From Pleurocapsa minor GSE-CHR-MK 17-07R (lineage in GTDB: Bacteria; Chloroflexota; Anaerolineae; Aggregatilineales; Phototrophicaceae), in contig JAHHHY010000003.1 of the NCBI GenBank assembly GCA_019359125.1, positions 124,001 to 188,000 on the forward strand: a stretch of DNA of 64,000 bases, read 5' to 3'. The translations under genes and the position numbers were made by a program. Below are positions 9,087-31,813 of the stretch, in pieces. Within the stretch, counting starts at the first letter, position 1. Each line of letters starts with the position of its first letter. Under the pieces are notes generated by a model. That model was not told where the DNA came from. It was given only the letters and a program-made list of their open reading frames with translations, and did no database searches.

Positions 9087-9770
9087 CTAGCCGGCATCGC
9101 GCAGACGAAGCACCTGGGCGGGAGTCTGGCCAATGAAGCGCCGCATGCTGTGGGTCAGGTGGGCCTGGTCGAAATAGTCGGCCTGCTGCACTGTGTCAAG
9201 GATAGACAGCCCGCTTTGCAGCAGTTCCGCCGCACGATTGGCCCGCTCGATCTGGCGGATCATCTTCAGCGTCAGACCAGTGGTGCGCACGAACCGATAT
9301 TGCAGCGCGCGGGCCGAATAGGCCTGCGGGATGCCGCGCAGCGCGTCCGTCACAACCGGGTCGTGGGCCAGCAGGCCTGCACGCGCAAGCCGTTCCACGA
9401 ACACATCGGCATTCTCGTAGGTTGGCACTTCCCAGGCCGCGCCATTCAGCCAAAAGCGCCGGCCAGATGCCATTGGCAGCACAGCATCGCGCTGATTCAG
9501 CAGCGCTCCGGGCGTCAGATGGGGCATGAAGGTGCCCAGGTTGAAGACAATGCCGATGGCATCCAGATCATCCGGAAATCCAGCCAGCGACGCCTGTGTC
9601 TCAGGCCCGCGCACGGACACGGTGGTCTCGCCCTGATGGCGCGAAATGACCATTTCCCAGTGCGTGTTCGCCTGTGACATAAATGAGCCGCTGCCGCCGC
9701 ACAGCACATGGTAAATCATCGCGGCCAGCGGTGAATCGGGTGTCCGGTCTTCTTCCACGAGAAACGTCAT
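9087..9770 (-). CDS. AraC-family transcriptional regulator
   Basis: A 227-residue protein. The last 90 residues are an AraC-type double helix-turn-helix (LKMIRQIERANRAAELL, then YFDQAHLTHSMRRFIGQTPAQ). The N-terminal 120 residues form a ligand-sensing region with a DUF6597-like look (MIYHVLCGGSG, GIVFNLG). It is transcribed towards the DHFR-like gene and probably controls it. The effector is unknown. Confidence 0.85.
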   Translation of the reverse strand: MTFLVEEDRTPDSPLAAMIYHVLCGGSGSFMSQANTHWEMVISRHQGETTVSVRGPETQASLAGFPDDLDAIGIVFNLGTFMPHLTPGALLNQRDAVLPMASGRRFWLNGAAWEVPTYENADVFVERLARAGLLAHDPVVTDALRGIPQAYSARALQYRFVRTTGLTLKMIRQIERANRAAELLQSGLSILDTVQQADYFDQAHLTHSMRRFIGQTPAQVLRLRDAG

Positions 9771-9865
9771 CGCGCTTTTACTGCCTTCGCATCCGCGCCA
9801 GTCACGCTCATTCTAGCACGGAGTGGCACTGACCCTTCGCCACGGTCAATGTTCAGATTGCAGGG

Positions 9866-9911
9866 AATACTGCAACAAACTAAGTCGGATGGACTGATTC
9901 ATTGCAGTATT
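9866..9911. repeat. 10-bp inverted repeat between AraC and BtrH-like genes
   Basis: AATACTGCAA (9866-9875) and TTGCAGTATT (9902-9911) are perfect complements around a 26-base spacer, in the 159-bp gap upstream of the AraC gene and downstream of the BtrH-like gene. It could be an operator or a weak terminator; the wide spacer argues against a simple terminator. Confidence 0.4.
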
Positions 9912-9929
9912 AACATGAATGGACCTCTT

Positions 9930-11120
9930 CTAAAGCGCGGCCTTCAGCGCCGACAGCGCCTGCACCTCGGCGGCATACAGGGCGGAAAGCTGCTCGCCCA
10001 TATGCGCGAACAACTCAGACTGCCGGGCAGGTGTGACGGGCGAGGCCGTATCATGCGCGCTGAACAGCGCCGCCAAATCAGCCGAGGCCTGCATCGAGGC
10101 ATCCACGCCCGCTTCGCCCAGCGCCAGCGCGTCATAGCGCGCATCGGTCAGCGTGCGCACCTCGCGCAGCAGGTCACTGGCATCCAGCGCAGACGCGGCA
10201 AAACGGCTCCACTGCGCGGCCAGACCGCGGTATAAACCGGCGACCTCGCGGAACTGCGGCGCGTGCAGGATGTCGGCGGCTTCTTCCAGAAAATCCGCAT
10301 ACACACCGCGCATCGCGCCGCGTGCCGTGCTGAAGCGTTCAGTATGCCCATACACCGACGTAAGCGCCTGCACCAGCCCCTCGCCGTTTGCAAACAGGAC
10401 CGGCCAGCCTTTGGGATTCTTCGTGTCCGTCATCATACGCGCCCACTTTTTGATCACCGGCAGGGCGAACGACTCGCTGCTGCCGCCCAGATAGCCGACG
10501 CAATCCTCCAGGCCAGCGCGCACGGACTCCGCAATATTCGGCGCAGCATCCGTCTGCCGCAGCGTGACCAGCCGATTCTTGTAGGTGGGGATACGGTCGC
10601 GCGCACGGGTGAGATCGGCCAGCGAAATGCGAAAGCCATCGGCACCCATGTCATCCAGCAGCGCCGTCTCGCCATCCAGCCCGTAAACCGTGCCCATATA
10701 GCCCATGCAGCCATCGAGGTCCGGGCTGATCGAGCGATACGGGACATTTTCGCGGTCGAGATACACAATCGCCGGAAGGCCGGATTCCAGCGCCGAGCGC
10801 AGCGCACGCTGCCCCGCTTTGGCCGAGCTTTCCACCACTGATGGCGCCACGCCGATGCGCGCGCACAGCCCGTTGTGATACTCGACCGGGTAATTCCAGC
10901 GATACTGCCAGCCAAACACGATCACTTTCAGCGGACGCGCCTTGAACTCCCACAGGATGTAGCCGACACCCAGCCCGCCGGCGATGCCAAACAGCAGCGC
11001 CTCAGAATACGGCTTGCCATTATGCGGGGCAACGATGCCCTGTGCCGCCAACGCATTGGCCACGCTGGCCGTCTCGGCATGGGCGCCACCAAACTGCCGA
11101 TATCCCTCGATGACGATCAT
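9930..11120 (-). CDS. BtrH-like N-terminal domain / DUF4872 protein
   Basis: A 396-residue protein. The first 130 residues resemble the BtrH N-terminal domain, a papain-like (C39-type) fold (EGYRQFGGAHAETASVANAL, then FGIAGGLGVGYILWEF). The C-terminal half matches the companion DUF4872 region (GGSSESFALPVIKKWARM, FANGEGLVQAL). BtrH itself transfers an acyl group from a carrier protein to an aminoglycoside in butirosin synthesis. No antibiotic cluster surrounds this gene, so the substrate is unknown. It stands alone, divergent from the mrp operon, with a recognisable promoter at 11167-11196. Confidence 0.75.
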   Translation of the reverse strand: MIVIEGYRQFGGAHAETASVANALAAQGIVAPHNGKPYSEALLFGIAGGLGVGYILWEFKARPLKVIVFGWQYRWNYPVEYHNGLCARIGVAPSVVESSAKAGQRALRSALESGLPAIVYLDRENVPYRSISPDLDGCMGYMGTVYGLDGETALLDDMGADGFRISLADLTRARDRIPTYKNRLVTLRQTDAAPNIAESVRAGLEDCVGYLGGSSESFALPVIKKWARMMTDTKNPKGWPVLFANGEGLVQALTSVYGHTERFSTARGAMRGVYADFLEEAADILHAPQFREVAGLYRGLAAQWSRFAASALDASDLLREVRTLTDARYDALALGEAGVDASMQASADLAALFSAHDTASPVTPARQSELFAHMGEQLSALYAAEVQALSALKAAL

Positions 11121-21560: not shown

Positions 21561-22007
21561 CTATGAAGCGGTCGGCTCGCCGCACCATTTGTATTCGCCA
21601 TCTTCCTGCGTGACGGCATAGGTCGCCAGCGGGAAATCACGGTTCTCGCCCCCATAGACCGCTGTAATGCGCCCGGTGCAGGTCACCGTCGCGCCACCTG
21701 CGTCGCTGGCGCACGACATCTCTTCCAGCGCGGCCTGCACCGCGTTGAACGACAGCGTCTCGGCATCGATGCGGCTTTCCAGAGCGGCGCAGATATTCGC
21801 GGCCACGCCCTCGCGGTCGCCCGCGACTTTTGCGGTCAGATACGCCTCCACGGCCAACGCAGCCGCGTCATCGGCGGGCGGCGCAACTGCCGAATCAGGG
21901 GCCTGTGCCCCTTCCGGCGCGGAGGTTGGGGCAGCAGCGCCCCCGCCACAAGCCGCCAGCAGCAGCGTTAATCCCAGCAGCAAAACAAACGTCAGCACAT
22001 TTTTCAT
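21561..22007 (-). CDS. Lipoprotein of unknown function
   Basis: A 148-residue protein. The ATG at 22007 was chosen because GGGGGA precedes it and it directly opens a lipoprotein signal peptide (MKNVLTFVLLLGLTLLLAAC). The lipobox is LLAAC. After an Ala/Pro linker comes an alpha+beta domain with an AVEAYLTAKVAGD opening, similar in style to NTF2-like or DUF4878-type domains. It could be the last gene of the SGNH/MBOAT operon upstream, from which it is separated by 103 bp of simple sequence. Confidence 0.7.
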   Translation of the reverse strand: MKNVLTFVLLLGLTLLLAACGGGAAAPTSAPEGAQAPDSAVAPPADDAAALAVEAYLTAKVAGDREGVAANICAALESRIDAETLSFNAVQAALEEMSCASDAGGATVTCTGRITAVYGGENRDFPLATYAVTQEDGEYKWCGEPTAS

Positions 22008-22110: not shown

Positions 22111-23289
22111 TCACCCTGACGCGGTCGGCACTGCCTCCGGCGTTGGGGCGGTCAGCGGCGCGACGGCCTGCTGAATCTGCCCCAGCGTGACCAGCGAGAA
22201 CAGGTTGTGCAGCGCCACGCCCGAATAGGCATCGTTGCCGCCGTCGTAAAACAGGTAGTCATAGCCGGAATACGTCAAGTGGATGTTGTCGATGTCCAGC
22301 CCGTAATTGGGCAGCGAACGCGCACCCGCCCACAGGTTAATCAGCGGCACCTGAAGCTCATTGGCCAGCGCGATCAGCTGGCGATTGAAGTTGATGGCCT
22401 GCGCCTGATACTGGTCATTCGGGTGGATGCTGAACAGGTTGAGCACCGGAATTACCCCTGCTTCCATCGTCTGCATCACGATGGCGCGCATCTGCTGGCC
22501 AAAGCCGACATCGGTGATGGCGCGCACATCGTTGGGGCCAAACATGATGAAGGCCACCACCGGCCGCTTGACGCGATACTCGCAGGTCAGCGGCGTCTCG
22601 CCGGGCTGACAGCCCAACTCGGGATTGGCCCACATCGGGTCGACCACGGCGAAGCTGCTCAGGCCGATGCTGGCTGCCGCGCTGGGCAGCGCCATACTCG
22701 CGCCATACTGGTTGATAATCGGCGTCAGGAAGTCGAAGGCGCTGAGTGCGCGTGACGGATGGGCCATCGGCGTCAGGTATTCGTCCGACGCGACCAGGCT
22801 GTCGCCCACCTTGGTGATCACGTTGGGCAGATTGCCCAGCGCCTGCCCCCGTGCATACACGTCCAGCATCGCCTGGCTGATACCCGCCGGCACATAAGGC
22901 ACAGCATACAGCTCACGCTGAGAAAAAGTGGCCGAATATTCGGGATTATTGTCGGGCATCGGGTTGATCGGCACCTGGCTGAAAGCCAGCGACGCGCGCT
23001 CGTTCAGGTAGCCGGACAAAATCCAGCCCTCGCGGTAGACGAAGCCATTGGCATCGACCATCTGGATGCGCACCCAGTTGCCGGCGCGGTTGCGCTCGAC
23101 CAGCAGCACGGGTTGGTCGGCATACAGCGTGCCCACCTGCGGGTTGGCCGGGCCGGGGCCCGCGAAAATATAGGCCTCGCGAAACGTCGTCACGGTAGGC
23201 GGGCTGAACGGCGCGACCTGGGCCAGCACACCAATCGCGCCGGTCAGGCAGGCCAGCGCGATCACAAACATCAGAAAACGAGCTTTCAC
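22111..23289 (-). CDS. Secreted SH3-SGNH hydrolase
   Basis: A 392-residue protein. A GTG start (23289) after AGGATA opens a signal peptide (KARFLMFVIALACL); the frame extends further upstream into the previous gene without a binding site. An SH3-like domain follows (residues about 35-100; GWILSGYLN), then an SGNH/GDSL hydrolase fold: GDS (nucleophile block I, KVGDSLV), GPND (block III), and DNIH (block V). It is the last clear gene of the Dlt-like operon. Two close paralogues lie in the same operon (23306 and 28922). Likely an extracytoplasmic esterase or acyltransferase on a surface polymer. Confidence 0.82.
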   Translation of the reverse strand: MKARFLMFVIALACLTGAIGVLAQVAPFSPPTVTTFREAYIFAGPGPANPQVGTLYADQPVLLVERNRAGNWVRIQMVDANGFVYREGWILSGYLNERASLAFSQVPINPMPDNNPEYSATFSQRELYAVPYVPAGISQAMLDVYARGQALGNLPNVITKVGDSLVASDEYLTPMAHPSRALSAFDFLTPIINQYGASMALPSAAASIGLSSFAVVDPMWANPELGCQPGETPLTCEYRVKRPVVAFIMFGPNDVRAITDVGFGQQMRAIVMQTMEAGVIPVLNLFSIHPNDQYQAQAINFNRQLIALANELQVPLINLWAGARSLPNYGLDIDNIHLTYSGYDYLFYDGGNDAYSGVALHNLFSLVTLGQIQQAVAPLTAPTPEAVPTASG

Positions 23290-23305
23290 AAAACGATATC
23301 CTGGT

Positions 23306-24187
23306 CTAATTTGGCGGAAGGCTGCTCTGCCACACATCATACAGCGTTTGCAGGCCGGTCAGGTTGCGGGCCACATAGCCATACTGCAAATTTTCCGGAC
23401 TGAACACAGCCGCGACCTGCGGGCGACCGCCCGGCGGACTGGATGGATGCAGATTATCCCACGCCAGGCCGTAATCCGGCAGGGTGTTCATCACCGCGGC
23501 ATAGTCCCACAGCGGCAGATTATAGCGCGCCGTCAGCTCGCGCACGTGGTCATTGAAGCGATAAATCGTCTCTGGCATGTCAGGGCGCATGGGGATGGTG
23601 CTGAACACGGGAATCACGCCCCAGTCCAGCGAAATCTGCATGATGCGCTCCAGGTAAAACACATATTCTTCGGGCGTCAGATAGCTGGCATCGTTGGTGC
23701 CAAACATAATCAGCGCGATCTGCGGGCTCATGATGCGAAATTCGCATTCCAGCGGCTTTTCGCCCGGCTGGCAGACTTCAGGATCGGCCAGCTCCGGCTC
23801 CAGCGCGCCCCACGACGCCCAGCCCACACCCGCCGCCAGCGATTCATGCGTGAAGGCGGTCTCGCGGTTGGGCCCGGTGATGGCATAGTTGAAATGGTCA
23901 ATCGCTGGCTCCAGATAGCCATACGGCCCCAGGTCATAAGTGCCCCAGCCGAACGGATGCATGAAGCTCAGGTTGACGCTGATGCTGTCGCCCACCTTCG
24001 AGAAGACGTTGTCGCGGTTGCCATAGGCCTGCCCGACCGAGCGAATCACGCGCAGGTTGTTCACCACCGCCTCGCTGTACGGGGAGACATACGGCGCGGG
24101 CGCGTCCTGCCCCAGCGCGGCCGCGCCGATCAGCAGTGTCCCTGCCAATGCCCCTGCGGCGATGATGCCCGTGCGTAATGCTGTCAT
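23306..24187 (-). CDS. Secreted SGNH hydrolase
   Basis: A 293-residue protein. The ATG at 24187 follows GGGAGAAG; the in-frame GTG at 24202 has no site. An N-terminal signal peptide (TALRTGIIAAGALAGTLL) precedes an SGNH fold with KVGDSIS, MFGTND and DNLH, the same blocks as its two neighbours' paralogues. It has no SH3 or LysM module. The gap to the next gene downstream is 16 bp and to the ligase upstream 19 bp, so it is part of the same transcript. Confidence 0.82.
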   Translation of the reverse strand: MTALRTGIIAAGALAGTLLIGAAALGQDAPAPYVSPYSEAVVNNLRVIRSVGQAYGNRDNVFSKVGDSISVNLSFMHPFGWGTYDLGPYGYLEPAIDHFNYAITGPNRETAFTHESLAAGVGWASWGALEPELADPEVCQPGEKPLECEFRIMSPQIALIMFGTNDASYLTPEEYVFYLERIMQISLDWGVIPVFSTIPMRPDMPETIYRFNDHVRELTARYNLPLWDYAAVMNTLPDYGLAWDNLHPSSPPGGRPQVAAVFSPENLQYGYVARNLTGLQTLYDVWQSSLPPN

Positions 24188-24206
24188 GCGTGCTTCTCCC
24201 ACTCAC

Positions 24207-25964
<1,758 letters not shown>

Positions 25965-25966
25965 CG

Positions 25967-26218
25967 TCAGCGGTTGTCACGCAGAATGCGCGCCACCATC
26001 AGGTTCAGCGTGTCCATCTTCGCCACCGTCAGGTCCGGGTCGGGGATATACACGCCAAATTCCTGCTCGGCAAATACACCGATTTCGGCCAGCGCGAACG
26101 AGTCGATCAGGCCGCTGCTGCACACGCCCTCGGCATCGTCCAGCGGATAAGACGCGTTGCGGATCAGTTCTTTGGTGATAAACGCACGCAGCTTTGCGCG
26201 CACTTCAGCTTCCTGCAT
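25967..26218 (-). CDS. Acyl carrier protein (DltC-like position)
   Basis: An 83-residue carrier protein. The ATG at 26218 is preceded by GAGGAAG and overlaps the end of the DltD-like gene by 14 bases. The phosphopantetheine site is SSGLIDSFALAE with Ser40, and the overall helical pattern is that of a type II carrier protein. It would be loaded by the adjacent ligase and present the acyl group to the MBOAT protein at the membrane. Confidence 0.88.
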   Translation of the reverse strand: MQEAEVRAKLRAFITKELIRNASYPLDDAEGVCSSGLIDSFALAEIGVFAEQEFGVYIPDPDLTVAKMDTLNLMVARILRDNR

Positions 26219-27356
26219 CAGCTTCCTCTTGTATAGCGGCCACAAACGGAACCACGGCCTCGCACAGGGCGCGGCTGCCCGCGGGCGTCAGGTGGACCGG
26301 ACTGTCGGTGAATTCAGCGGGCGCGACGGCATCCCACAGGTCGGCATACGGCCAGCCTTCTGCCGCAGCCGCGTCGCCCAGCAGGGCGCGATACTGGTCA
26401 TAGGACCAGCGCGGATACCAGAAATTATAGCGCACGTCGCTGTTCTGCCCGTCCGCGATAAAAATCGGCTCGTTGACCAGCAGCAGCGGCACCCGCGCCT
26501 GCCCGGTCAGCGACGCGCCAGCGCGCAGCACGTCCAGCGCCAGAATGTCGTCATTCAGCGTGGCATCGGGGTTCAGCCCCTGCCACGTCGCATCCTCGTC
26601 AAAGTCATTCGAGCGCGGCGTGTATTCGCCGTAGACCTGGTCGATGCCGGTATGCGTCCAGGCGACGCCATAGGCCTGCAGGCGCAGCCAGTCCGCCAGC
26701 GCACGCCGCTGTCCAATCAGCGTGCGCCCGATGAAATCCGTCTCGACGAAGCGCGGGTCCAGCGGGTCAAAGCCCAGGCCGAAGCGCTCTATCAGCGGGC
26801 GAACCCGCGCCGGATTATTAGCGACGATGGGCGCGTCTAACTGGCGTTCGCGCGGCAGGCTTTCCAGCGTGACCAGCCACATGATCGCGTCGGGCTGATA
26901 GGCCAGCGCGGCCTCCAGCAGCAGCAGGTCTTTCAGCGCGCTCATGGTGGGATAGCCGACGTTATAGAATCGCGTGCCGGGCAGTTGTTCGGTCAGGCAG
27001 GCGGGCAGCGTGTCGCGGTTTTCCAGCAGCACGCCCCACACGGACGAATCGCCCAGCACGATGACGCGCCGGGCATCCGGGCGCGGCCCGGCCAGCGTGT
27101 GGCTGGCGAACATGGCGTTCAGGTCAAACAGGCTGAGGTTATAGGCGGCAGGATCCTCGCCATACGGCAGACGCTCACGCCCGGCCAGCAGCCCGTTATA
27201 CAGCGAGACGCGCCCGAGCGCGGGCACCGGGTCTGCCAGCACAAAAGCCAGGTTGAGCAGCACAAACAGGGCCAGCGCCTTGCCCAGCACGCGCGCCAAA
27301 AAGCCCCAGGTATAGCCGCCGTCGGTCAGCCATTTCCAGCCCGGCATCGCGCTCAT
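26205..27356 (-). CDS. DltD/AlgX-like membrane-anchored SGNH protein
   Basis: A 383-residue protein. The ATG at 27356 overlaps the MBOAT stop (ATGA). One N-terminal membrane anchor (VLGKALALFVLLNLAFVLA) precedes an SGNH-like domain with VIVLGDSSVWG (Ser block) and SPVHLTPAGS near the C-terminus (His block). The order anchor-SGNH next to an MBOAT gene is that of DltD with DltB, or AlgJ/AlgX with AlgI. It likely completes acyl transfer to an extracellular polymer. Confidence 0.8.
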   Translation of the reverse strand: MSAMPGWKWLTDGGYTWGFLARVLGKALALFVLLNLAFVLADPVPALGRVSLYNGLLAGRERLPYGEDPAAYNLSLFDLNAMFASHTLAGPRPDARRVIVLGDSSVWGVLLENRDTLPACLTEQLPGTRFYNVGYPTMSALKDLLLLEAALAYQPDAIMWLVTLESLPRERQLDAPIVANNPARVRPLIERFGLGFDPLDPRFVETDFIGRTLIGQRRALADWLRLQAYGVAWTHTGIDQVYGEYTPRSNDFDEDATWQGLNPDATLNDDILALDVLRAGASLTGQARVPLLLVNEPIFIADGQNSDVRYNFWYPRWSYDQYRALLGDAAAAEGWPYADLWDAVAPAEFTDSPVHLTPAGSRALCEAVVPFVAAIQEEADAGS

Positions 27357-28795
27357 GCCCCACCCCCGATGCCAAACAGCGCGGCAAAGACGCGCAGCCC
27401 CTGGCCGATATCCGGCAGGGCGAACCACACCCAGCCCAGGGCGACAAAATGGAACGTCAGCAGCGTCCCCACGACATGCCAGGCGCGGCGGCGGCCGTCG
27501 CTCAGGCCGCGATACCAGGCGCGCGTGCGGTCGGTCCACAGCTTATGGGCGAACAGGCCCAGCGCGTGCCATGCACCCCACAGCAGGAACGGCAGCGTGA
27601 TGCCGTGCCACAGCCCGATCACGATGAAGGTCGCCGCAGTCGCGCTGAAGATAATCACGTAGTTGCCCGGCTTGGGCTTGCGCTTCAGCAGCGCGCGCGA
27701 CAGGGGCGAATAGATGTAAAAGCGGCCCCAGTCGCTGAGCGATTTATGCCAGCTCTGCCAGAAAATGGTCAGGTTTTGCTTCAGGTACGGCCGGTCGAAA
27801 TTCTCCGGAAGCTGCACGCCAAACAGCAGGCCAATGCCAATGGCGATGTCGGTATAACCGCTGAAGTCGAAGAACAGCCGGAACGCATACGCGTACAGCA
27901 GCACCCAGGTCGCGCCTGCGCCATCGGCCTGCGAGGCCGTCAGCGGGCCCAGGCTGAAGATCGCCAGCGTGTCGGCAATCACGAACTTCTTGAACAGCCC
28001 GACGGCGATGCGCCCCAGCGCGGTCGTGATGCGCGCCGGGTCACGCAGGCGCGCTTCGGCCAGCCCGGCCACGGCAGCGCCATGATTCTCGGCGCGGTCG
28101 ATCGGGCCGGCCACCAGCGCGGGCGTGAAAATCACATACGAGAGATAGTCGCGGAAGCCGAGCGCGGGCAGGATGCCCGTCTGCCGGTCGCGCAGCGTGT
28201 GTATCAGGCGAAAGGCGATATACGAGAAGCCCAGCCAGCCCAGGTCAACCGGCGAGGCCAGCGCGGCATCCTGCCCGGTGGTGCTTCTGGCCAGCCCGGC
28301 CAGCGTCGTCGTCAGCGGGGAAAACTTCAGCAGCACGAATAGCCCGGCCAGCACGAACACTCCGGCCAGCAGGCCGCGCCGCGTGCCAGAAGCGAGGCGC
28401 GCCAGCAGCATCCCGGCGATGCTCAAACCAGCGACCAGCGGAATGGTGATTTCAGCGGGCGGCGGACGTGACGTGATTTCCAGCGCGGGCGGCAGCTCGA
28501 TATAGCGCGGCAGCAGCAGCAGCGCGGCGATGCCCGCCGTCAGCGCCAGCGCCAGCCAGTCAGCACGGGTGACGCGTGCATCGGGGGCCAGCGTCAGCCG
28601 CCAGCACAGCGCGACAATCACCAGCGTGAGCGCCGGCAGCGTGTAATCCAGCCAGCGCACGGGCAGCGTCGGCTGAAGCCAGAACAGCCCGACCACGCTG
28701 CCGACCATCAGAAACGTCGGCCGCCAGCGCGCGGGCAGAAACAGCACATACAGCGCGGCGGCTGCCAGAAGGATGCCAATCTGGGGGAAGTCCAC
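27353..28795 (-). CDS. MBOAT-family O-acyltransferase (DltB/AlgI-like)
   Basis: A 480-residue polytopic membrane protein with a GTG start. The conserved MBOAT core is present: DFSGYTDIAIGIGLLFG, FWQSWHKSLSDWGRFYIYSPL (345-365) and GLWHG with the catalytic His397. DltB and AlgI use this fold to carry acyl groups across the membrane. It starts four bases after the stop of a DltX-like microprotein and overlaps the DltD-like gene. The N-terminal 150 residues have extra helices compared with short AlgI proteins. Confidence 0.9.
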   Translation of the reverse strand: MDFPQIGILLAAAALYVLFLPARWRPTFLMVGSVVGLFWLQPTLPVRWLDYTLPALTLVIVALCWRLTLAPDARVTRADWLALALTAGIAALLLLPRYIELPPALEITSRPPPAEITIPLVAGLSIAGMLLARLASGTRRGLLAGVFVLAGLFVLLKFSPLTTTLAGLARSTTGQDAALASPVDLGWLGFSYIAFRLIHTLRDRQTGILPALGFRDYLSYVIFTPALVAGPIDRAENHGAAVAGLAEARLRDPARITTALGRIAVGLFKKFVIADTLAIFSLGPLTASQADGAGATWVLLYAYAFRLFFDFSGYTDIAIGIGLLFGVQLPENFDRPYLKQNLTIFWQSWHKSLSDWGRFYIYSPLSRALLKRKPKPGNYVIIFSATAATFIVIGLWHGITLPFLLWGAWHALGLFAHKLWTDRTRAWYRGLSDGRRRAWHVVGTLLTFHFVALGWVWFALPDIGQGLRVFAALFGIGGGA

Positions 28796-28799
28796 GCGC

Positions 28800-28922
28800 C
28801 TAGAACCCCTGGTAAATCCACTGCGGCGCCGTGCTGGTCGTCACGATCAGCAGCAGTGCCAGCAGCAGGCACAGGCCCAGCGCAAACAGGTTCTCGCGGG
28901 AGAAAAGTCGGCGCATCGGCAT
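28800..28922 (-). CDS. DltX-like membrane microprotein
   Basis: A 40-residue ORF (MPMRRLFSREN at the start, WIYQGF at the end). Its ATG shares one base with the stop of the LysM-SGNH gene (TGATG) and its stop lies four bases before the MBOAT start, so it fills the space exactly. One membrane helix (about residues 11-28) follows a basic N-terminus. The C-terminal IYxxF pattern resembles the conserved end of DltX (FIYNEF type), the microprotein of dlt operons whose C-terminal Tyr is reported to take part in D-alanine transfer. The family call is by position, size, topology and this motif; there is no database support here. Confidence 0.7.
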   Translation of the reverse strand: MPMRRLFSRENLFALGLCLLLALLLIVTTSTAPQWIYQGF

Positions 28923-30478
28923 CAGGATCCGTAGGCGGCGCGCATGACAGTATCCAGCACGATCAGCCCGGCCAGCGAATGCACGCCGTGGCCGGTGCGC
29001 AGCGCGTTCGGGTCGCTCCAGTCGTGCGCGTAAAACGTGGTCATATGCGTGCCGTCACTGCCCAGCCCGCGACCGGGAATGGTGAGCGCAAGCAGGTTGA
29101 AGTCCCACAGCGGCACGCGGTACTCCCGCGCCAGACGGCGGAAAATTTCATTGTTGGTGTCGTTGCCTTCAAAATCGTCGGCCTTGGTGCCAATGATCGG
29201 CACGACGCCCTGCGCGATGCAGTATTCGATGATTTCGCGCATGCTGTTCTCGACATAGGTCGGCACACCGACATCGTTCGAGCCGAGGCGAATAAAGACA
29301 TAGGCCGGATTCTGGATGCGGAACTCGCAGGCCAGCACGGTCTCGCCGCTTTCGCACTGATAAGGGTCGGCCCACATCGGGTCGAGCGCAGACCAGGTGT
29401 GCATGCCCACACGCACGGCCAGGCTGTTGCGCCCAAACGAGCCGCGGAACCAGTCGATGGTCGGCTGAAGCCAGGCATACTGCGCCAGGTTATAGCCTTC
29501 ATCGGGGAAGTCGAAGCGGTCCATGAAGTACGGGCTTTCGATGGTGCTGTCGCCCACCTTGGCGAACGCATTCGGGTTGCGCCCCATCGACTGGCCAAGC
29601 GCGAAAATCTCGCGCACGCGCTGGCGCGTTGGCGCGTCCAGCAGGATATACTGCTCCAGCGACAGCCCGTTGATGCTGTCGTCTCCGCGGGTGCCAAACA
29701 CCACCGCCGTCGGCACCGAGCTGATCGGCGGATCATCCAGCTCGCCCACCAGCATCTGCTGGGCATCGTTGGGCGCGGTGCGCGTTTGCAGGCCCATCAT
29801 CGCAGCGACCGCCAGCGTCGGGTCGAGCGTGGGAATCACCAGCGGCGTCTCGCTGGGAATCGGCGTGGCTGAGGGAATTGGCGTCTCGGTCGGCGTCGGC
29901 GTGGCGGATTCCAGCGGCGTGGGCGAGGGCGTCGGGCTGGTGGTCAGGAAGGCGATCGGCGTTACCAGCGACAGCGTCACCAGCGAGGACGGCGTGCTGG
30001 TCGGCTCGTAGCGCGGAATCAGCAGCGTCTGGCCCACCATCAGCGCGTTAATATTCGTCAGGCTGTTGGCCGACGCTATTTGGCTCACGGTGACGCCATA
30101 AAAGGATGCAATCGTGGACAGCGTATCGCCACGCGCCACCACATGGGTGGGATTGACCGGCACTGTGGCCGTGGCTGAGGCCGTATTGGTGGGCGCGGAC
30201 GTGGGCGGCACCTGAGACGCCTGGGCCGCGACAGCCGGGGCGGTCGACGTGTTCAGGAACTGGTTCACCGCTTGCGCGTAGGCCACTTCCGGGCTGTCGG
30301 CACTGGTAGACTGCGCCGTCGTGGCCGTCGTCGCAGTGATGCTGAGCACCAGGTAGGTGAGCAGCAGCACGACAGGGATCATCAGCACGGTGAGGACAAG
30401 CGATTGACGTGAACGCGCGATCATGAAGCGGCCCGATGTGAACGGTATCTCTGGCAGGTGACCGCTATAGTAGCGCAT
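28922..30478 (-). CDS. Membrane-anchored LysM-SGNH hydrolase
   Basis: Up to 518 residues; an ATG at 30424 (MIARSRQSLVL) may be the true start, giving a signal anchor at once, but neither start has a good binding site. The anchor is followed by a Thr/Ser linker, one LysM domain (THVVARGDTLSTIASFYG, LMVGQTLLIP), a long Thr/Pro linker, and a C-terminal SGNH domain (KVGDST, LGSND, DGTH). It heads the Dlt-like operon. LysM domains bind N-acetylglucosamine polymers, so the enzyme is probably held at peptidoglycan or a related wall polymer. Confidence 0.83.
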   Translation of the reverse strand: MRYYSGHLPEIPFTSGRFMIARSRQSLVLTVLMIPVVLLLTYLVLSITATTATTAQSTSADSPEVAYAQAVNQFLNTSTAPAVAAQASQVPPTSAPTNTASATATVPVNPTHVVARGDTLSTIASFYGVTVSQIASANSLTNINALMVGQTLLIPRYEPTSTPSSLVTLSLVTPIAFLTTSPTPSPTPLESATPTPTETPIPSATPIPSETPLVIPTLDPTLAVAAMMGLQTRTAPNDAQQMLVGELDDPPISSVPTAVVFGTRGDDSINGLSLEQYILLDAPTRQRVREIFALGQSMGRNPNAFAKVGDSTIESPYFMDRFDFPDEGYNLAQYAWLQPTIDWFRGSFGRNSLAVRVGMHTWSALDPMWADPYQCESGETVLACEFRIQNPAYVFIRLGSNDVGVPTYVENSMREIIEYCIAQGVVPIIGTKADDFEGNDTNNEIFRRLAREYRVPLWDFNLLALTIPGRGLGSDGTHMTTFYAHDWSDPNALRTGHGVHSLAGLIVLDTVMRAAYGS

Positions 30479-30620
30479 TTACGCGGAATCAGAAAGCGCG
30501 GCGCGGGCGCTTTGCTGCCAGAGGCCGCGACTTTCTACCGAAGAATTTCATAATTCCTTTGTGCAGGAACCATGGAGTTTTATGCAAAATGAAATTCATT
30601 GTGCAATCACTTTGTACGAG

Positions 30621-30652
30621 CGTGTTACAATCTGGGTGAAATCGTGTTACAA
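30621..30652. promoter_or_regulatory. Direct repeat CGTGTTACAA x2, 22 bp apart
   Basis: CGTGTTACAA occurs at 30621-30630 and 30643-30652, two helical turns apart, directly upstream of the receiver-kinase gene (start 30665). Spacing of this kind is typical of tandem binding sites for a dimeric regulator. TACAAT (30626-30631) could serve as a -10 element. Confidence 0.45.
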
Positions 30653-30664
30653 CCGGAAAACGTA

Positions 30665-31813
30665 ATGCTTACGATGTCCCAATTCAGCAACACAGGCTCG
30701 CCCATCATGCTGCGCATGCCCAGGGTGCTCGTGGTGGATGACGACCCCGGCAGCATGATGCTGCTGCGTCGCACGCTGGGCAAAGAGTGCGAAGTGACGA
30801 CCGCCAGCAATGGCCAGGACGCGCTTGATATTCTGCAAAGCGGGCAGGCCTTTGACGCGGTGCTGCTGGACATTATGATGCCAGGCATGAACGGCCTGGA
30901 AGTGCTGAAGGCCATCCGCGACAGCGAGGCGCTGGCAGACCTGCCGGTGGTGCTCATCAGCGGCCGCCACGAAAGCGAAGACGTGGTCGAGGGCTTGCAG
31001 CTGGGCGCCAACGACTACATTTCCAAACCTGTGAACATCCCGGTGCTGCGCGCCCGTATCCACACCCAGCTTGCCCTGAAGCAGCTCAGCGATGCCTACA
31101 AGGCCAAAATCGTGGAACTGCGCGAGGCCCAGGAGATGCAGGAGCGCTTCCTGCGCATCGTCAGCCACGACCTGAAAGGCCCGCTGACCAACCTGCGCAT
31201 GGCCCAGTATCTGCTGCGCGAGATCGTGGCCGGCCACCCGCAGGGCAGCAGCATCCTCGATAATGTAGACACCACACTGAACGATATGCAGGAGCTCATC
31301 CGGGTCTTTCTGGATGCCTCCACCTATCAGCCCGGCCGCCTGACGCCGGAAATCGAGAGCTTTGACGCCAACGATGTCATCCAGAAAGTCGTCGAGCAGT
31401 ATGCGATGACGGCCGACAACAAAGGCACGACCATCCGCTATACCCCTGCTCCGGTCGCGCTTATGGCAGACGCTCGCTTCTTCAACCAGATCGCCAGCAA
31501 CCTGCTGAGCAATGCGATCAAATACAGCCCGCCCCACTCCACGGTCACGGTGTGGGTGGAGACGGAAGACCAGTTTGCGCGCTTCTGCGTGGCAGACCAG
31601 GGCCCCGGCATCCCCGCAGCGGAACGCGGCAAGCTGTTCCAGATGTTCAGCAAGCTGAGCACACGCCCCACCGCCGGAGAATCCAGCTCCGGGCTGGGCC
31701 TGTGGATCGTCAAGATGCTGGTGGAGGCCCAGGGCGGCAGCATCGGCGTAGACTGCCCCGCAGAGGGCGGTTCTATTTTCTACACCTACCTACCGCTGGC
31801 TCAGGCAGAATAA
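30665..31813 (+). CDS. Receiver-histidine kinase hybrid protein
   Basis: A 382-residue protein. The ATG at 30665 follows GGAAAA. A receiver domain comes first (VVDDD, phospho-acceptor D69, K121), then a short coiled linker, a HisKA dimerisation domain with H168 (IVSHDLKGPL) and an HATPase domain (NLLSNAIKYS, DQGPGIP, GLGLWIVK). There is no membrane segment or sensor domain, so it is a soluble relay kinase, probably controlled by phosphorylation of its own receiver. No partner response regulator is adjacent. Confidence 0.92.
   Translation: MLTMSQFSNTGSPIMLRMPRVLVVDDDPGSMMLLRRTLGKECEVTTASNGQDALDILQSGQAFDAVLLDIMMPGMNGLEVLKAIRDSEALADLPVVLISGRHESEDVVEGLQLGANDYISKPVNIPVLRARIHTQLALKQLSDAYKAKIVELREAQEMQERFLRIVSHDLKGPLTNLRMAQYLLREIVAGHPQGSSILDNVDTTLNDMQELIRVFLDASTYQPGRLTPEIESFDANDVIQKVVEQYAMTADNKGTTIRYTPAPVALMADARFFNQIASNLLSNAIKYSPPHSTVTVWVETEDQFARFCVADQGPGIPAAERGKLFQMFSKLSTRPTAGESSSGLGLWIVKMLVEAQGGSIGVDCPAEGGSIFYTYLPLAQAE

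Follow-up and report, generated by a model that had tools for sequence, protein, structure and literature searches.

A predicted Dlt-type gene cluster with a fatty-acyl-AMP-ligase-type adenylating enzyme in an Anaerolineae-type member of the Chloroflexota

The core genes and their products

The gene cluster was identified in a window of 64,000 nucleotides (nt), the whole stretch of DNA analysed, from assembly GCA_019359125.1 of Pleurocapsa minor GSE-CHR-MK 17-07R (contig JAHHHY010000003.1, positions 124,001 to 188,000 of the forward strand; GTDB class Anaerolineae, phylum Chloroflexota). Its core comprises genes for a DltX-like microprotein (X), a DltB-like MBOAT protein (B), a DltD-like SGNH protein (D), a stand-alone carrier (C) and a fatty-acyl-AMP ligase (FAAL)-type adenylating enzyme (A), accompanied by three further SGNH genes. 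The first-pass annotation of this DNA had described eight open reading frames (ORFs) with the Dlt-like functions in the order X-B-D-C-A; all eight were found at the positions it gave, on the minus strand and overlapping or a few bases apart, and the order was borne out. It had overlooked a ninth member, a lipoprotein gene at 21561-22007. The start of D is corrected from 27539 to the ATG at 27356. The start of C is probably the ATG at 26218 and that of the lipoprotein gene probably 22007. With these starts, the LysM-SGNH gene shares 1 nt with X, B follows X after 4 nt, B and D overlap by 4 nt and D and C by 14 nt, A follows C after 2 nt, and the next SGNH gene follows A after 4 nt. The MBOAT is the sole match to PF03062 in its own genome (E 0.001), and four of the eight places matching PF13472 (E 0.01) lie within the locus.

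X (28800..28922, start 28922 or 28916) is 40 amino acids long, with a positively charged N-terminus (MPMRRLFSREN) followed by a single hydrophobic segment and the C-terminal tail PQWIYQGF. A shuttle motif FXYXXF, whose Tyr ferries the acyl group from the MBOAT to the SGNH protein, is described in passages of PMC12148441. The tail of X corresponds to this DltX-type motif, with Trp at the first position in nearly all copies, compared with the published Phe. A C-terminal [FW]xYxxF was present in all 191 X copies, of which 72 were found independently of a DNA pattern and 119 were selected by a pattern that fixes WIYQGF, so that the motif was predetermined in the latter. The 72 pattern-independent tails comprised 67 WIYQGF, 2 FIYQGF and one each of WIYANF, WIYQRF and WIYQNF; the X profile was seeded with relatives chosen by a looser motif near an MBOAT gene. 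Across 71 pattern-independent X genes, the mean pairwise difference at codon positions 1, 2 and 3 was 0.349, 0.172 and 0.551 over 33 codons, and 0.014, 0.023 and 0.442 in the last six codons. Because of this codon-position conservation and the C-terminal motif, X is a real gene, and a chance ORF was ruled out. For 163 of the 191 X genes, an MBOAT start was predicted at a downstream distance of -60 to 400 nt (median gap 0). The X protein of the window (P0002) had no match at E 1 in Pfam or NCBIfam, and a search of 26 X proteins against NCBIfam gave six models, each matching a single protein (best E 0.0059).

The MBOAT (27353..28795) matched the Pfam MBOAT family (E 2e-24) and scored 199.7 bits (E 8.4e-59) with the DltB model TIGR04091, below its cut-off of 375 bits; the same model was matched by all 26 aligned orthologs (E 1e-10). 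Its PDB matches were two sequences, both DltB, and by sequence it is a relative of DltB rather than an equivalog. H350 and H397 align with the DltB active-site residues H289 and H336 and were invariant in 26 sequences (residue names His289 and His336 as given in excerpts of PMC11035591). Among 153 ortholog copies (profile score >430), not one ended in the shuttle motif in the PatA-type fused arrangement. In 10 of 11 lower-scoring MBOATs it was fused to the C-terminus (one as FVYQGI), and the eleventh, L069, had a separate X. The motif is therefore located either on X or on the MBOAT, which fits the shuttle model as set out in passages of PMC12148441. At L091:1696-5138, an MBOAT with a fused FIYQGF tail directly precedes a carrier and a FAAL-type ligase, with no separate X in that stretch.

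The ligase (24207..25964) matched the Pfam AMP-binding family (E 1.6e-42). Its leading NCBIfam matches were PRK07768, a long-chain-fatty-acid--CoA ligase model (335 bits), and a FAAL model (300 bits), both below cut-off, as were further matches to the MbtM and FadD32 models; the DltA model was not among the best 25 (25th, 93.9 bits). The best solved relatives in the PDB were two FAALs, 3pbk and 3kxw, although the deposited name of 3kxw is saframycin Mx1 synthetase B. On this sequence placement the ligase is FAAL-type and not DltA-type, as the first-pass annotation had read it. FAALs activate fatty acids for holo-acyl carrier protein (ACP) and are characterized by a FAAL-specific insertion, a helix and a blocked CoA pocket, according to PMC8460268. 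The carrier (25967..26218, within an ORF from 26245) has the phosphopantetheine site GLIDSF, the Ser of which was invariant in 26 sequences. It matched acyl-carrier models below cut-off (E 1.5e-4), did not match the PP-binding Pfam family at E 1, and reached 13 bits with the DltC model NF003464, for which the cut-off is 68. A profile search of the PDB returned acyl, peptidyl and D-alanyl carriers, including PltL (E 6.7e-11) and DltC (E 1.2e-5).

D (26205..27356) has one N-terminal helix and is probably membrane-anchored. It matched the Pfam GDSL family below the curated cut-off (E 2.3e-6), and a sequence search of the PDB gave five chance-like matches (best E 0.094). An AlphaFold model (pLDDT 94.2) predicted an SGNH fold with the N-terminal helix. 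DltD chains aligned to the model over 277-290 of 383 residues (Z 14.1-14.6; root-mean-square deviation 4.6-5.4), compared with about 166-227 residues for other SGNH proteins, and for this reason the modelled D may be likened to DltD in the extent of the alignment, the fold itself being no proof of DltD membership.

Co-occurrence and gene order in related genomes

Co-occurrence was assessed in 61 genomes, namely that of the window and 60 relatives (MBOAT E<1e-60, ligase E<=1e-60). The MBOAT was found in 39, the ligase in 43 and both in 38, placing the ligase in 38 of 39 genomes with the MBOAT versus 5 of 22 without it; in G041, the one MBOAT genome without the ligase, X-B-D lies on a contig of 10 kb. 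In 199 genomes of the class, cut-offs (MBOAT E<1e-100, X E<1e-6, ligase E<1e-150) were chosen after the listings had been seen. Here the MBOAT was present in 36 genomes, X in 37 and the ligase in 38, with the MBOAT accompanied by X in 36 and by the ligase in 34. The ligase thus occurred in 34/36 genomes with the MBOAT versus 4/163 without (Fisher p 1.8e-31, a statistic that ignores kinship). X was present in all 36 genomes with the MBOAT versus 1/163 without, as expected from the co-occurrence of microprotein and MBOAT put forward earlier. At a ligase cut-off of 1e-100, 46 genomes were positive (35/36 with the MBOAT, 11/163 without). The ligase occurred without the MBOAT in G466, G545, G573 and G579 (in the last inside a frame of 1,044 amino acids), and X without it in G473.

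A search of 400 genomes of the phylum with the X profile (E 0.001) gave matches in 36, comprising 34 of the class of the window, the genome of locus L168 and G229, where the match was weak and the tail absent from the reading frame. In this sample X was confined to its own class, the sole convincing outside match (L168) belonging to a true dlt locus, described below. Scanning genome contigs with the DNA pattern gave at least 119 loci. Of the 80 for which titles were listed, 79 are named as Chloroflexota or as lineages of that phylum, and one is from an uncultured bacterium; occurrence of the X set outside Chloroflexota is possible. Of the 119 pattern loci, 111 showed at least one of the genes B, D and A; of the other eight, seven have X with lipoprotein or SGNH genes and one (L214) X alone.

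Gene order was compared in 161 MBOAT loci, ignoring other genes. The arrangement X-B-D-C-A was found in 46, which bears out the conserved synteny anticipated by the first-pass annotation, X-B-D in 49 and X-B in 28; the two shorter counts include loci cut by the ends of stretches or contigs, and some genomes are counted twice. No family beyond the core was widely recurrent among the neighbours of the loci examined; next came a cluster of proteins of 340 amino acids, found in 11 loci and including an ABC transporter ATPase. A further 21 stretches carried the ligase and no MBOAT, with the carrier in 13 and X in 4. No Pfam family occurred in more than two of 76 scanned neighbours in these stretches (89 neighbours listed; 25 of 108 families viewed), and, with the longest of 260 ORFs encoding 1,042 amino acids, there was no sign of a synthase cluster. 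The reading as a polyketide or lipopeptide cluster was set aside, none being apparent among the neighbours, and the ligase/carrier pair appears tied to MBOAT-SGNH genes rather than to lipid or polyketide clusters, in keeping with the earlier proposal. In four loci (L078, L079, L080 and L082) X adjoins the ligase in a stretch that has no MBOAT, and HypA/HypB/HypF-type maturation genes lie beside the X-ligase genes in three scanned or clustered examples from these loci.

Accessory SGNH proteins and the lipoprotein

An N-terminal hydrophobic stretch is present in each of the three additional SGNH proteins. The LysM-SGNH protein (28922..30478, minus strand, start 30478 or 30424) has a GDS motif and matched LysM (E 2.5e-14) and, below the Pfam cut-off, GDSL (E 1.8e-5). 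The protein encoded at 23306..24202 (minus strand) has GDS, GTND and DNLH motifs and two family-conserved Cys, and matched GDSL (E 6.6e-9). The third (22111..23340, minus strand, start 23340 or 23289) combines SH3-like and SGNH parts, its matches to SH3_3 (E 7.4e-5) and GDSL (E 1.6e-7) both lying below the Pfam cut-offs. Searching the PDB with P0007 turned up a weak match to a lipase/acylhydrolase (E 0.0033), besides one at chance level (E 0.12). In a phylogenetic tree the three copies of the window fell into three well-supported sets, each with relatives, and they are therefore not recent duplicates of each other. The Gly of GDS and the two Cys were invariant in 121 aligned rows (the window copies being included twice), and the His was present in 118. 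Of the 117 rows in the tree, 66 have Ser and 51 have Cys at the nucleophile position, and the well-supported branches require that this residue changed at least twice. All window copies have GDS; related operons contain copies with GDC, a predicted cysteine nucleophile, for example at L136:12197-13027 and L166:12149-12976. As judged from sequence, a Cys nucleophile may point to a thioester relay or to loss of plain esterase activity.

The lipoprotein (21561..22007, minus strand) has a predicted NTF2-like domain (best Foldseek E 2.3e-3) and five cysteines invariant in 35 aligned rows. No Pfam family was matched above cut-off; weak matches were to DUF4440 in 4 and SnoaL_3 in 2 of 46 members. In many relatives a family member is found next to X, and 79 of the 119 pattern loci contain one; for that reason the lipoprotein is part of the conserved set. 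Divergent from the operon, a protein encoded at 30599-31813 (plus strand) was judged by eye to combine a response-regulator receiver and a histidine-kinase part, making a regulator of the operon possible.

A putative acyl-transfer route, its alternatives and its meaning

The locus has in common with the Dlt pathway a DltB-related MBOAT, a carrier, a separate microprotein with an aromatic-x-Tyr-x-x-Phe tail, an anchored SGNH protein and a dedicated adenylating ligase. It differs in its FAAL-type ligase, the order X-B-D-C-A, the extra SGNH proteins and the NTF2-like lipoprotein, and D and the carrier fall short of the DltD and DltC models. A canonical dlt locus was ruled out, the MBOAT, ligase, carrier and D all scoring below the cut-offs of the Dlt models. 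By the same models, a true dlt locus (DltD-X-DltA-DltB) is present in another class of the phylum, at L168:4878-8886. There, genes for a DltD (211.6 bits), an X-like protein with the tail PPFIYQGF, a DltA and a DltB (420.7 bits) lie in a row, the DltA reaching 533.9 bits with PRK04813 (above cut-off) and 523.5 with TIGR01734 (below cut-off). A second DltD-like gene lies on the other strand of L168 at 9363-10589. PatA/PatB and similar MBOAT-SGNH acetylation systems share the MBOAT, the SGNH protein and a C-terminal aromatic-Tyr shuttle motif, but in these the MBOAT itself carries the motif as a fused tail, acyl-CoA serves as donor and there is no carrier or microprotein, as described in passages of PMC12148441. 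FAAL-ACP pairs of polyketide, lipopeptide and mycobacterial lipid pathways likewise have a FAAL-type ligase adjoining a stand-alone carrier; at the present locus, however, the partners are an MBOAT, X and SGNH proteins, with no synthase seen nearby. The combination of FAAL, MBOAT and microprotein was met in no title or abstract opening among the papers listed by a literature search that covered mostly papers outside subscription.

On the basis of gene content, motif, homology, co-occurrence and synteny, we consider it likely, by analogy with Dlt, that the locus is a Dlt-type transmembrane acyl-transfer operon in which a fatty-acyl-AMP-type ligase replaces DltA. The substrate of the ligase would be a carboxylic acid, in all likelihood a fatty one, which the enzyme would adenylate and load onto the phosphopantetheine of the carrier. 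The loaded carrier would dock at the cytoplasmic face of the MBOAT, where the acyl group would pass to the Tyr in the X tail WIYQGF; this tail would then bring it to the active Ser of the anchored D, which would esterify an extracytoplasmic acceptor. The three further SGNH proteins may relay, redistribute or remove the groups; LysM and SH3 modules usually bind the cell wall. The route from ligase through carrier, MBOAT, X-Tyr and D-Ser to the acceptor would thus be the published Dlt route with another ligase. We infer all reactions from sequence, along with the identity of the acyl group, that of the acceptor and what the lipoprotein and the accessory SGNH proteins do. Of the earlier interpretation, the Dlt-like set, the FAAL-type ligase and the synteny stand, whereas its fatty or hydroxy-acyl cargo and its wall-polymer acceptor we can only infer.

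Several observations weigh against this Dlt-type reading. In 15 of the 38 genomes with both genes the ligase is on another contig, and in G042 it is 0.3 Mb away on the same contig. G115 and G524 have the MBOAT and X but no ligase at the cut-off, and loci such as L159, L162 and L164 are arranged as X-B-D-SGNH with neither carrier nor ligase in the stretch. D did not match the DltD model TIGR04092 at E 1, nor did any protein of its own genome at E 1e-10. The top structural match of D was CgnD (Z 16.4, 220 residues), single-domain SGNH esterases score like DltD or higher, and the variable residue in the TD/NS..H stretch of D is Asp or Asn. Peptidyl carriers such as PltL are, beside acyl carriers, among the nearest solved relatives of the carrier. 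Proteins matching the DltD model occur in three X-carrying genomes of the same class (G088 and G307 above cut-off, G328 below) and are possibly a second system. Finally, the role of DltX is called unclear in PMC11035591.

The sequence placement of the ligase, the sole basis for naming the cargo, inclines us modestly towards a fatty acid. Since the carrier is also close to peptidyl carriers, the cargo might instead be amino-acyl, and the same machine could carry D-alanine or another amino acid, activated by a FAAL-type replacement ligase of changed specificity. The PltL and DltC matches of the carrier profile and the fact that DltB proteins are the only solved relatives of the MBOAT would suit such a cargo; the leading fatty-acid and FAAL matches of the ligase (335 and 300 bits, both below cut-off), with DltA outside its best 25, make it unlikely, as do the 533.9 bits that a DltA of the same phylum (L168) reaches with the DltA model and the activation of fatty acids for holo-ACP by FAALs in the passages of PMC8460268. 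We regard as more improbable still that the ligase and carrier serve an unrelated lipid or lipopeptide while an MBOAT-SGNH module using acyl-CoA only travels along. Distance between ligase and MBOAT in 16 of 38 genomes would be explained in this way, and FAALs are best known in polyketide and peptide pathways according to excerpts of PMC11837247; yet the ligase follows the MBOAT closely (34/36 versus 4/163), the 21 stretches where the ligase lies apart from any MBOAT showed the carrier in 13 and X in 4 with no other recurrent partner among the 76 scanned neighbours, and acyl-CoA-dependent MBOAT-SGNH systems have no separate microprotein in the account given in passages of PMC12148441.

A different acceptor, such as a membrane glycolipid, a secreted polysaccharide, peptidoglycan or a surface protein, would be compatible with the Dlt-type reading, and we hold it to be a real possibility, if rather below an even chance. 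PF04464 (CDP-glycerol glycerophosphotransferases) had no match in the genome of the window at E 0.01, and peptidoglycan would suit the LysM and SH3 modules that two of the accessory SGNH proteins carry. Four places in the same genome matched the LCP family (PF03816), members of which link glycopolymers to the wall, and these suggest instead that wall-linked glycopolymers are present. The premise of the first-pass annotation that Chloroflexota lack teichoic acids was too broad, given the dlt locus L168 and the teichoic and lipoteichoic acid synthesis genes reported for the Litorilinea aerophila genome in passages of PMC8793728. A tentative extension of the Dlt-type reading, to which we give slightly less than an even chance, is a wall-lipidating machine of monoderm Anaerolineae-type bacteria, in which fatty acids activated by the FAAL would pass through carrier, MBOAT and X-Tyr to form esters on a wall polymer and render the wall hydrophobic, with wall-bound SGNH proteins, often of the Cys type in relatives, trimming or relaying the chains.

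MBOAT-SGNH pathways besides Dlt are said to have neither a carrier nor a DltX-like microprotein (PMC12148441, published in 2025). Because the present set has both, together with a different ligase, the arrangement suggests a general chassis rather than an architecture specific to D-alanine. Were a fatty acid the cargo, the operon would provide a route for lipid chains onto the surface of a bacterium without an outer membrane. To our knowledge, little is known of the envelope chemistry of this phylum. The cluster offers a compact gene set, open to testing and conserved in Anaerolineae-type bacteria.

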